From Ponticaulis koreensis DSM 19734 (GTDB lineage Bacteria > Pseudomonadota > Alphaproteobacteria > Caulobacterales > Hyphomonadaceae): a DNA stretch of 64,000 bases. Under the pieces are notes generated by a model. The model had not been told where the DNA came from. It searched no databases and saw only the letters and a list, made by a program, of their open reading frames with translations. The position numbers and the translations under genes are program-made. This document shows positions 53,370 to 61,240 of the stretch, one piece after another (the stretch's first letter is position 1; the number at the start of each line of letters is the position of its first letter). Where the stretch lies: positions 2,055,588 through 2,119,587 of the forward strand of contig NZ_ATVJ01000001.1 in assembly GCF_000420665.1 (NCBI RefSeq), in the 5' to 3' direction.

Positions 53370-53460
53370 AATGAGAGGATGATTCGGCGTCGCGAGTTAT
53401 CTCCCGTGCAGGAGTTACCAACAATAATACGCCCCATACATTCAGCGAAGTGTGGGTGGA

Positions 53461-54741
53461 ATGCTGAAAGCGGTACGGACATTCATAAATGCATTGAGGG
53501 AGCGCGATGGCAATGTCACGATGACATTCGCTTTGACGCTAATTCCCTTAATGATGGTCGCCGGTCTCGCCATCGACTTTTCACGTACTGAAGGGTCCGC
53601 AACGCAGGTTCAATCCGCGCTCGACGGCGCCGTTCTGGCAGCAGCTCGCGCACTTCAGGACGACAAGACGGATGCGCAAATCCGTCAAACAGGGCGCTCA
53701 TACTACGATGCGACCGTTTCTGCGAATAATGTGAACGCGAGTTGCGCTAACCCGATTTTCGAAATTGACCGTGTGAACCACCAGGTAATCTCCAGTGTGA
53801 CGTGCCAGGAACGGACCACGCTCTCCGGATTGCTGGGCATGGAGACCCTTGAGTTTACGCGCTACGCGGAAACGGATTATGGCGTCGGCAAGCTTGATGT
53901 CGTCTTCATGTTTGATACGTCCGGGTCTATGGGCGATAATGATCGCATGCTCGATTTGCAGCATGCGGCCCGCGATGCAGTGCGCACTATTCTGAACAGC
54001 GAAGTTGAAGATCCCGACGATGTGCGTATTGCGATCTCGACATACGCGTCAGCGGTGAATGTCGGAGAAGACCTGTTCGAGACTGTTACGGACGAAGAGC
54101 CGGATCAGTATGAGTGTTCCCGCTGGAGACGGCGTGGCCGCAGCAATAACTACTATTGCCAGCGCTGGGAGCAGGTTACAGACACGTGCGTCACCGGCCG
54201 CGAGGGCGCTCAGAAGTATACTGATGCAGCACCAGGTTCGGGCGCATGGATGCGGTATGAAACCACATCCTGCAACTCGGCGGGCCTCACGCCACTCACC
54301 AACCATCAGGGCACGCTCATTTCCGCGATCAGCACTATGCCAACTTCTGGCGGTACCGCCGGGCATCTTGGTATTGCGTGGGCCTGGTATCTGATTTCGC
54401 CGGACTGGTCGGGCATTTGGGGTTCGGATTCGGCGCCTCGCGCTTATGACGAGCCGGACTCTACCAAAGTTGCTATTCTCATGACCGATGGTGAGTTCAA
54501 TGCCGATTATATGAGCAATGGTAATTCTTTCGACCATGCCCAGCGGTTCTGCGATGCCATGAAAGCGGAAGGTATTGTGATCTACACGGTCGCCTTTCAG
54601 GCACCGCAACAGGGGCAGAATATCCTGAATTATTGCTCTTCTGGCAGCGAGTATGCGTTCAACGCCTCAAATGGAGAGCAATTGGAAGAAGCCTATCAGG
54701 CAATTGCTACGAACATCTCCGATTTGCGGATTTCTCACTAA
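53461..54741 (+). CDS. TadG-like pilus assembly protein with vWA domain
   Basis: A 426-residue protein of the TadE/TadG class. After a short basic N-terminus, one membrane helix follows (FALTLIPLMMVAGLAID), with SATQVQSALDGAVLAAARAL, then a von Willebrand A domain with the metal-binding DxSxS (VVFMFDTSGSMGD near residue 150) and a second Thr/Asp site (ILMTDGEFNAD). An insertion of about 90 residues rich in Cys and Trp splits the vWA part. It lies alone, away from other tad genes. ATG 53461 follows GGGTGGA. Confidence 0.87.
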   Translation: MLKAVRTFINALRERDGNVTMTFALTLIPLMMVAGLAIDFSRTEGSATQVQSALDGAVLAAARALQDDKTDAQIRQTGRSYYDATVSANNVNASCANPIFEIDRVNHQVISSVTCQERTTLSGLLGMETLEFTRYAETDYGVGKLDVVFMFDTSGSMGDNDRMLDLQHAARDAVRTILNSEVEDPDDVRIAISTYASAVNVGEDLFETVTDEEPDQYECSRWRRRGRSNNYYCQRWEQVTDTCVTGREGAQKYTDAAPGSGAWMRYETTSCNSAGLTPLTNHQGTLISAISTMPTSGGTAGHLGIAWAWYLISPDWSGIWGSDSAPRAYDEPDSTKVAILMTDGEFNADYMSNGNSFDHAQRFCDAMKAEGIVIYTVAFQAPQQGQNILNYCSSGSEYAFNASNGEQLEEAYQAIATNISDLRISH

Positions 54742-58198: not shown

Positions 58199-60022
58199 TC
58201 AATTCGGTCGGATCAGGGTGATCGTGCCGTCCTGATAAGCGGCCAGACAGTCGGTTGCATCATTGCGAATATCGCTGTCGAGCAGAACTGTTGTGGACAT
58301 GCCGTCGCCTTCGAAGCGTGGATCATCGCATTCGCCATCTTCTGCCCAGCGCCCGTTGTCGACGCCAAACAGAATGCCATCATAAAGCGTTCCGCTGGCT
58401 GCAGGCTGTGAAATGAACGTGACGCGTCCCTGCCGGTATGCGTTCAGACAGTCGGTTGCGTCTGCCTTTTTATTTTCATCCAACGGTTCGCCTTCTGCCA
58501 TTGCCTCGCCTTCAAATCGCGGGTCGTCGCATTCGTTGTCGTTGGCGAAAACGCTCGTATCGGTACCGAAATTAATGCCATCATAGTGGCGTGGACGAGT
58601 AATCTCTTCTCTCAGTTCGAGGCGGTCCTCCTGATACGCGGCCAGGCAATCTGATGCGTCTGCGCGGATGTGTTCATCGGTGAGAAGCACCTGCGTCATG
58701 CCTTCACCAATGAAGCGACGATCATCGCATTCGCCATCATTTGACCAGATGCCGCTATCATCGCCGAAGTCGATTCCGTTATAGGTGACTGGCGAGAAAT
58801 ACGCGTTGCGAATGGTGATGCGGTCTTGCTGATATGCGGTCAGGCAGTCGGTTGCATCGGCCTCGATATTGCTCTGCTCAAGCGGAGGGCTTGCCATGCC
58901 CAGCCCCTGAAATCGTGGATCATCGCATTCATTGTCATTGGCGAAATCACTTGAATCTACGCCAAATGTAATGGTTTCGAATTTGAGCGGCTCGGTGATG
59001 GGCGTGCGCAGTTCCAACTCGCCTGACATCCAGGCCGCGATGCAGTCAGATGCATCCGCCATGATGTTTGCATCGGTGAGCAGTACGCGTGTCATGCCGT
59101 CGCCTATGAAGCGGCGATCATCACATTCGTCATCATTTGCGTACGGACTGCTGTCGTCACCAAAATTGACCCCATCGACCATGCGTGGGGCGATATAGGC
59201 GCGGCGCAGAAATATGCGGCCGGCCTCATATCCGGAGAGGCAGTCCGACGCGTCTTTCTCCACTGCGTCGGATAATCCGCCGATAATAGACATGTCGGGG
59301 CCGACAAAGCGCGGGTCGTCACATACGTCGTCATTAGCGAACTGACCTTCATCAATGCCGAACAGAATGCCTTCCTGAGAGTAAGGTTCTTCAATCTCTA
59401 CAATAAGCTGGATTGCACCGTTTCGGTAGAAGAACAAACAGTCGGATGCATCAGCTTCAATGTTTTCCTCGTTAAGGAACTGAGCCATGCCCGTTCCCTG
59501 AAAGCGAGGATCGTCGCATTCGTCATCATTAGCCCATTCGCTGGAATCGACACCAAAATTGATGCCATCGAATGTGTAAGGCTCGTCGAAACTGGTGCGC
59601 AGAGCAATCGTGCCAGCCTGAAATGCGGCCATGCAATCTGCGGAATCGGCAAGAATGTTTTCGTCCTGCGTATATGTCGCCATCCCGCGTCCGCGAAAGC
59701 GCGGGTCGTCGCATTCCCCATCGTGAGCCCAACGACCGCTATCTGTGCCGAACTCCACGCCGTCATACGTGACGAAACTTGTGTTTCTCAAAAACACAGT
59801 TCCACTTTCAAAAGCCGCCTGACAGTCTTCTGCGTCATGGCCCTCATTTCGGCGAGACTGGAAACTGGATGCGTCTGGACCTGCAAAACGCGGATCATCG
59901 CATTCGCCGTCATTGGCAAAGCGACTCGTATTGTCACCGAAATCGGGTGAGGCCTGCGCGGAAACAGATTCGCCTGCCAGGCAGAGAGACGTCATCAGCG
60001 CCAGTGTTATGAAGATCCGCAC
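58199..60022 (-). CDS. Exported protein of nine Cys/Asp-rich tandem repeats
   Basis: A 607-residue protein: a signal peptide (LALMTSLCLAGESVSAQA), then nine tandem repeats of 62-68 residues to the end. Each repeat has a FG.D.S.(W/F)AND(G/D/N)ECDDPRF.G.GM half and a later DA(T/S)DC..A(Y/F)..G.I.LR half, so two Cys per unit that could form a disulfide, with acidic side chains that could bind calcium (inference). Most units are ECDDPRF; units 5 and 7 read ECDDRRF, and unit 4 has VCDDPRF. Start at GTG 60022 after AAGGA; a longer frame to 60124 lacks a good site. Single-repeat relatives occur in exported proteins of marine alphaproteobacteria, but I know no function. Confidence 0.82.
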   Translation of the reverse strand: MRIFITLALMTSLCLAGESVSAQASPDFGDNTSRFANDGECDDPRFAGPDASSFQSRRNEGHDAEDCQAAFESGTVFLRNTSFVTYDGVEFGTDSGRWAHDGECDDPRFRGRGMATYTQDENILADSADCMAAFQAGTIALRTSFDEPYTFDGINFGVDSSEWANDDECDDPRFQGTGMAQFLNEENIEADASDCLFFYRNGAIQLIVEIEEPYSQEGILFGIDEGQFANDDVCDDPRFVGPDMSIIGGLSDAVEKDASDCLSGYEAGRIFLRRAYIAPRMVDGVNFGDDSSPYANDDECDDRRFIGDGMTRVLLTDANIMADASDCIAAWMSGELELRTPITEPLKFETITFGVDSSDFANDNECDDPRFQGLGMASPPLEQSNIEADATDCLTAYQQDRITIRNAYFSPVTYNGIDFGDDSGIWSNDGECDDRRFIGEGMTQVLLTDEHIRADASDCLAAYQEDRLELREEITRPRHYDGINFGTDTSVFANDNECDDPRFEGEAMAEGEPLDENKKADATDCLNAYRQGRVTFISQPAASGTLYDGILFGVDNGRWAEDGECDDPRFEGDGMSTTVLLDSDIRNDATDCLAAYQDGTITLIRPN

Positions 60023-60235
60023 ATTAGCATCCTTAAAAGTCCGTGCTGTCAGTTTTGCGAGAAAACGGGTCTGGTCAACCGTGAATTCAGGGGATTGGGC
60101 GGTGTTTGAGAGGATGAAGACCACGTCGAGACGCTAAACCGAATATGAACGAAAGGGCTCGTTTACCACAACGAAGCATTCAGACTGGGTTCAATGCGGG
60201 TTCTTCATATTGGCTGCATGGAAGGAGAATTTCCC

Positions 60236-61240
60236 ATGCAACTGAAAGCCATTACCTCTGGAGTAGCTCTCGCCGCGATGATGGCGATCACCCCCGCCGC
60301 CAACGCCCAGTCCTCTTACTGGAGCTATGACGGTCAAACGAATTACAGCTCGTATTCTTCCTGCGAAGAAGCGCGCAGCACACGTACAATGAACGGCGCG
60401 GCGATTGGCGGCCTTCTGGGTGCCGGTGCTGGCGCGATGGCTGGTGGTGATGACACCCGTAACGCGATTGTTGGTGCGATGATTGGTGCCGCAGCAGGTG
60501 GCATTGTCGGCAACCGTCAGATCCAGTGTTCTGAATACCAGTATCCGAGCCAGAGCTCGTCTTACTCTACAACGTCAAACACGCGTTATGTAAGCAGCCA
60601 GCCGACATACGGTCACACATCGTCAAATGGTTACTACAGCAATGGTCAGTACAATAACGGCCACCATAACCAAGGCTATCAGACCACATATCCGTCCCGT
60701 TCGTACTCAACGACACGGACATACAGCAACGGCCATGGCAGCAATAACGGTTACGGCAACAGCACGTACAATAACGGCTATAACAATAGTAGCTATCAGT
60801 CCGGTCGTACCTATACGACAACGCGGACTTACAGCTCCCAGCCGACCCATAGCTACGGCAATAACAGCAACTATGGTCACAATGGCAGCTATTCGAACCA
60901 CGGCAACTACCAGTCCAATAGCGGCTATAACACCGGCTACCATAGCGGCAGCACATACCAGACCTCCAACCGGTATTCGCAGCCAACATACAGCTATCAG
61001 CAACCTGCAACACAGCGCTGGAGCTATGATGGCGAGACCATGTTCCGCTCTTATGGTGAGTGTGACGAAGCCCGCCGCAGCCGGACCCTCGCGGGTGGTG
61101 GTATCGGTGCCCTGGCTGGTGCAGGCCTTGGAGCCATGGCTGGTGGTGATGACACACGAAATGCAGCAGTCGGCGCGGTCGTCGGTGGTGTAATCGGTGC
61201 CTATGCTGGTCAGCGTACGATCCAGTGCTCGCAGTACTGA
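60236..61240 (+). CDS. Duplicated glycine-zipper protein with Asn/Tyr/Ser-rich linker
   Basis: A 334-residue exported protein (signal peptide ending PAANAQ). Two copies of one module flank the rest: WSYDG, a Cys-Glu-Ala-Arg turn, a glycine zipper (GGLLGAGAGAMAGGDDTRNA in the first, GALAGAGLGAMAGGDDTRNA in the second), and IQCS(E/Q)Y at the end. Between them about 155 residues of Asn, Tyr, Ser, Gly, Thr and His form a low-complexity linker with units like STYNNGYNN, TTTRTYSSQP and NYGHNGSY. Glycine zippers insert in or associate with membranes. ATG 60236 follows AAGGAGA. A hairpin right after the stop separates it from the crotonase. Confidence 0.85.
   Translation: MQLKAITSGVALAAMMAITPAANAQSSYWSYDGQTNYSSYSSCEEARSTRTMNGAAIGGLLGAGAGAMAGGDDTRNAIVGAMIGAAAGGIVGNRQIQCSEYQYPSQSSSYSTTSNTRYVSSQPTYGHTSSNGYYSNGQYNNGHHNQGYQTTYPSRSYSTTRTYSNGHGSNNGYGNSTYNNGYNNSSYQSGRTYTTTRTYSSQPTHSYGNNSNYGHNGSYSNHGNYQSNSGYNTGYHSGSTYQTSNRYSQPTYSYQQPATQRWSYDGETMFRSYGECDEARRSRTLAGGGIGALAGAGLGAMAGGDDTRNAAVGAVVGGVIGAYAGQRTIQCSQY

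Follow-up and report, generated by a model that had tools for sequence, protein, structure and literature searches.

The window, the whole 64,000-nucleotide stretch of DNA analysed here, encodes an exported protein built from nine tandem units of a domain that matched no described family in our searches. We put at roughly 0.5 the probability that this protein forms a beads-on-string array in the envelope or outside the cell, in which disulfide-stapled, acid-caged and probably Ca2+-binding modules serve as spacers or as binding modules. The repeat, the signal peptide, the conservation, a confident unit model, the homologous family and the domain partners were all obtained by computation.

Nine tandem units in one exported protein

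The gene lies on the minus strand (58199..60022, stop included) and encodes 607 amino acids. It starts with GTG at 60022, preceded by a putative Shine-Dalgarno sequence, AAGGA, and its nine-unit orthologues in two congeneric genomes share the GTG start. The sequence, a crude signal scan and these orthologues revealed a Sec signal peptide, VRIFITLALMTSLCLAGESVSAQA (59951..60022, minus strand), with a predicted signal peptidase I site after SAQA, in agreement with the earlier note, which had called the protein secreted. SAQA is not a lipobox, no recognised anchor was found in the protein, and unit 9 runs to the C-terminus. The association with the surface or the outer membrane proposed earlier is accordingly putative for the nine-unit protein.

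Repeat comparison placed the units, all on the minus strand, at 59768..59950 (unit 1), 59573..59767 (unit 2), 59378..59572 (unit 3), 59180..59377 (unit 4), 58982..59179 (unit 5), 58784..58981 (unit 6), 58586..58783 (unit 7, also covered by the single-unit model, for which it was the query), 58385..58585 (unit 8) and 58202..58384 (unit 9, C-terminal). The FG pairs that mark units 1 to 9 fall at residues 28, 91, 156, 221, 287, 353, 419, 485 and 552, with spacings of 63, 65, 65, 66, 66, 66, 66 and 67 residues. Over a 46-residue core, pairwise identity among the nine units averaged 53% (range 37-72%). BLOSUM62 global scores averaged 124 (minimum 79) for the real units and -16 (maximum 6) for shuffled units, which excludes a chance origin of the repeat. 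The FG starts, the identities and the scores against shuffles confirmed the nine tandem units reported earlier with their coordinates, and the variants VCDDPRF in unit 4 and ECDDRRF in units 5 and 7 were present as described. Each of the nine units has exactly two Cys, and 12 columns, with acidic and Gly positions among them, do not vary between the units (F G, D, C D D, R F, G, D, D C). The two half-motifs had been drawn too strictly. Units 2, 3 and 4 depart from DA.DC..A, reading DSADCMAA, DASDCLFF and DASDCLSG, and FG.D fails for unit 1, which begins FGDN.

The closest unit pairs were 5/7 (72% identity), 3/6 (70%) and 6/8 (67%), which suggests from the repeat sequences that the array grew partly through two-unit duplication. 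The two orthologues were 95-97% identical to the window gene in protein and 89-90% in DNA, with dN/dS of 0.034-0.038. Because protein identity exceeds DNA identity and dN/dS is this low, the nine-unit array is kept by selection, and the gene is under strong purifying selection. It is missing from 2 of the 6 congeneric genomes searched, one of them 99% complete, and unit copy number per protein varies from 1 to 9 among relatives, so the gene is not essential. No second unit-bearing gene was found in the window genome, and promoter and terminator scans at the nine-unit gene did no better than shuffles.

Downstream on the same strand lie genes for an AMP-binding CoA ligase and a MaoC-like dehydratase. 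The divergent neighbour (60194-61240, plus strand) encodes a protein with two glycine-zipper (YMGG-like/17-kDa antigen) domains, which flank a low-complexity stretch of about 150 residues rich in Ser, Tyr, Asn, Gly and His; each domain has W-SYDGxT before it and QCS-Y at its end. Further off in the window, 53452-54741 (plus strand) encodes a Tad/TadG-like protein with a VWA domain, an ordinary Flp-pilus-associated gene. Neighbour names were assigned by eye, those of the window being confirmed by Pfam. The neighbours of unit genes were conserved only inside each clade and differed from one clade to the next: Rhodobacteraceae have accA/malyl-CoA-lyase-like genes there, Erythrobacteraceae DnaX/helicase genes, Devosia relatives priA/xerC-like genes, and Hyphomonadaceae the CoA ligase with MaoC. 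Since the neighbours of the window gene are kept only within Hyphomonadaceae, they give no functional pointer, and assignment by operon or guilt by association was rejected.

Conservation and predicted structure of the unit

Conservation was assessed in 319 distinct units from the fetched loci, with positions given as alignment columns. Both Cys were kept in 319/319 units, exactly two Cys were present in 307/319, and the Cys-to-Cys spacing was 26-27 in most. G6, D15, D19, D20, R22, F23, G25, D41 and D44 were 98-100% conserved, with Asp at columns 15, 19, 20, 41 and 44 reaching 99-100%; values for the first half-motif were slightly favoured because the retrieval pattern was that half-motif of one unit per locus, the second half-motif lying outside it. 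Column 8 was Asp in 87% of units and Asn in 12%, and column 12 was W, Y or F. The paired Cys are always retained in exported proteins, as in disulfide-stapled repeats. Of the earlier claim of disulfide-stapled units, the constant Cys pair stands and fits an intra-unit staple, with the bond itself putative.

The data are also consistent with Ca2+ binding, and the units probably do bind this ion, given the invariant Asp columns, an exchange limited to Asp and Asn at one column, and an acidic core that is retained in the four-Cys form described below. The Asp/Asn pattern would favour Ca2+ over other ions, as would export into a mostly marine setting, sea water being rich in Ca2+. Among structures and profiles that have a known metal site, none matched the unit. 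Alternatively, the conserved Asp can cap helices or turns, and the invariant Arg in each unit could neutralise some of them.

We modelled unit 7 alone and the whole nine-unit chain. The single-unit model was confident (pLDDT 95.2, pTM 0.80), with short strands and one 9-residue helix bearing the second Cys, and thus predicts an ordered fold. The chain model (pLDDT 81, pTM 0.30) showed equal secondary structure in all nine units, and its low pTM indicates well-formed units whose mutual orientation is not fixed. This fits the extended protein that the earlier note had envisaged, although a rigid rod is not predicted. Foldseek returned no match to either model in the PDB and no viral match in BFVD. 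We do not claim a new fold, because Foldseek is weak for domains of about 60 residues and the comparison covered the PDB and BFVD.

In the mechanism that we propose, each unit of about 60 residues would be a small autonomous domain that opens with an N-terminal hairpin (YDGI-FG), continues through an acidic turn (NDGECDD-RF-G-G) and a short helix (ADCxAAYxAG), and closes with a strand. A disulfide within the unit would join the Cys of ECDD to the Cys of DAxDC, and the invariant Asp of NDxxCDD and DAxDC would gather round a divalent ion, most likely Ca2+. Nine such beads with short linkers would form a long and flexible, highly acidic chain, either periplasmic or extracellular, whose repeated modules would serve for binding or spacing. 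For the nine-unit protein, we infer the disulfide, the metal, the location beyond the inner membrane and the ligand.

Distribution, relatives and alternative roles

Searches of Pfam, NCBIfam, PADLOC and PDB sequences gave nothing credible for the nine-unit protein, and the motif did not turn up in the literature searched. Neither result that the earlier note had set against its reading, predictions without an ordered fold or placement of the repeat in a well-described family, was thus obtained. Weak Pfam and NCBIfam matches to CT0912-like_C, CDtoxinA, PRK06025 and HMG-CoA synthase were judged chance matches to repeats. Arr-ms on one relative (L056) scored 27.1 bits, above the cut-off, but lay inside the repeat array and was likewise judged chance.

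The unit itself proved widespread in other genomes. A single strict pattern retrieved 270 related loci from GTDB species genomes, of which 79 were kept. Nearly all of the 79 are from Alphaproteobacteria (Hyphomonadaceae, Rhodobacteraceae, Erythrobacteraceae, Devosia/Pelagibacterium, Rhodospirillaceae and others); other labels were Gammaproteobacteria for L100 and Pseudomonadota only for L062. Units were carried by 39/105 genomes of the host's family, 19/200 in a sample of the order and 10/398 in a sample of the phylum, and the closest named records to a window unit, from a Ponticaulis sp. and a Hyphomonadaceae MAG, were 97-98% identical over one unit, the host itself being a Ponticaulis-like member of Hyphomonadaceae. 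The domain is thus common, but none of the family and structure libraries searched has a name for it, and many alphaproteobacterial envelope and protease proteins therefore carry an unannotated part. Phage or plasmid cargo was rejected, as the unit had no match in phage, plasmid and IMG/VR viral-contig collections at the sensitivities used. In Henriciella and relatives (L009, L019, L042, L043, L048), a linker of some 400 residues, almost only Ala, Glu, Asp and Val, lies between a single unit at the N-terminus and two units at the C-terminus. In L068 and L103, the arrays run across two frames that overlap, as a frameshift or an error in sequencing would produce.

A crude signal scan found a signal-like N-terminus in 97 of the 106 distinct unit proteins. 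Of the 18 proteins picked out by the lipobox rule, several seem to have ordinary signal peptides; L035, L065, L066, L067, L074, L083, L095, L098 and L107 are among the clear lipoproteins. At six loci (L029, L035, L041, L065, L067, L089), a gene for a lipoprotein with 1-2 units adjoins, on the same strand, a gene for a soluble exported protein with 3-8 units, representing at most five independent cases, given the close relationship of L065 to L067. Two unit genes also stand in tandem on one strand in a genome of the host's family (G424 contig 6, near 899578-901663), and no adjacent lipoprotein/soluble pair was found in the window genome. It is a speculative thought that single lipoprotein units and soluble multi-unit chains might assemble into a Ca2+-dependent two-part scaffold, with an undescribed metal-binding fold and a module separately recruited to secreted proteases. 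The gene pairs offer a direct way to examine self-assembly.

Trypsin-fused relatives carry a short form of 35 residues with four Cys. This unit, found upstream of bacterial trypsin-like proteases and unnamed in the libraries searched, has the same Asp/Cys core as the window unit, D-G-x-C-D-(D/E) and D-x-x-D-C. Compared with the 60-residue unit, it lacks the conserved RF-G block and the helix/strand region at the C-terminus and has two extra Cys, one in place of the second Ser of DDSS and one before GTD; the columns that vary little or not at all form the same D-C-D-D-D-C core plus these two Cys. Comparison of the two profiles with hhalign gave 98.4% probability (E 8.8e-15), and the four-Cys profile matched the window's own units at E 2e-6, with reciprocal genome matches. 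Judged by these profiles, the two-Cys unit and the protease-fused four-Cys unit are clearly homologous and make up one new domain family. Mainly because both forms share the core, the acid cage with one staple would be the essential part. L180 (967-2517, minus strand) encodes 517 residues with eleven four-Cys units and Gly/Pro linkers, without a catalytic domain, a short-form counterpart of the nine-unit protein.

Pfam identified Trypsin or Trypsin_2 in L112, L113, L114, L126, L182 and L184, Aspzincin_M35 in L185, DUF4189 in L207, PG_binding_1 with Sel1 in L121 and PPC in L100. Because relatives are lipoproteins or fusions to protease or peptidoglycan-binding domains, the module probably serves in general to retain partners or bring them into position within the Ca2+-rich envelope or extracellular space. 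Each unit might more specifically bind peptidoglycan or a glycan of the cell wall or extracellular space, with tandem copies raising avidity. The PG_binding_1 and Sel1 fusion, the lipoprotein forms, the variable copy number and the invariant aromatic and Arg positions (F23, R22, and W/Y/F at column 12) all point that way, but no carbohydrate-binding family matched and no recurrent glycan genes adjoin, and we consider this role rather doubtful.

The protease fusions raise the idea that the units serve exported serine or metallo-proteases as a multi-headed inhibitor, a prodomain or a substrate-docking part, the nine-unit protein acting in trans. Four-Cys units stand directly before trypsin domains in L113, L114, L126 and L182-L184, divergent units of L112 precede its Trypsin_2 domain, and the unit comes after the M35 peptidase domain in L185. 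We nevertheless find such regulation unlikely: no protease recurs near the genes of free-standing two-Cys proteins, the four-Cys profile matched only the nine-unit gene in the window genome, and no hypervariable reactive loop is evident, much of the stretch between the evenly spaced Cys being conserved. That the array is an acidic calcium buffer or matrix polymer, holding many divalent ions at the cell surface with no specific ligand, seems improbable, since the confident globular unit model and the low dN/dS (near 0.035) favour a defined binding fold over bulk charge, even though the mature protein is 14% Asp, 7.5% Glu and 0.7% Lys with a net charge of -84, and acidic Ala/Glu/Asp linkers of several hundred residues separate the units of the Henriciella relatives.

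Comparison with LDL-A and LNR modules

The preferred reading, an array of stapled and probably Ca2+-binding modules, has two known systems as its nearest likenesses. LDL-A repeats are small, tandem, extracellular, Cys- and Asp-rich and Ca2+-dependent, with six Cys paired 1-3, 2-5 and 4-6. LNR modules are tandem and Ca2+-binding, with six Cys and a DGGDC-type calcium site, and lie near protease cleavage sites in Notch. The window repeat resembles LDL-A in its tandem build of small Cys/Asp-rich units, and the C-x-DGSDE-x2-C of LDL-A resembles the end of the four-Cys form, C-x2-GTD-x2-DC; however, LDL-A has six Cys against two in the window units or four in the short form, and the window unit differs in having about 60 residues with a helix. 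An enlarged four-Cys set gave a weak hhalign score of 18.1 against LDL-A, slightly higher than the best of 60 column shuffles (15.2), and this excess was confined to the short form. The two-Cys profile showed no similarity to LDL-A, Pfam scans up to E 10 gave no LDL-A match, and neither the unit nor the chain model had a match in the PDB, Foldseek being weak at such small size.

With LNR, the unit shares the order C...DG-x-CD...C...D-x-x-DC, and the LNR motif has an end similar to DAxDC, whereas the six Cys of LNR again contrast with two or four. The unit profiles scored 13.2-13.5 against LNR with hhalign, within the column-shuffled range, and Pfam scans of the unit proteins gave no LNR match. 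Cys counts, Pfam scans and profile scores set against those of shuffles led us to reject membership in both families; by these tests the unit is neither an LNR nor an LDL-A domain. By analogy, it may work like these modules without being either, and, if the calcium-caged staple fold is true, the domain would give bacteria an equivalent of extracellular modules of the LDL-A/LNR kind.
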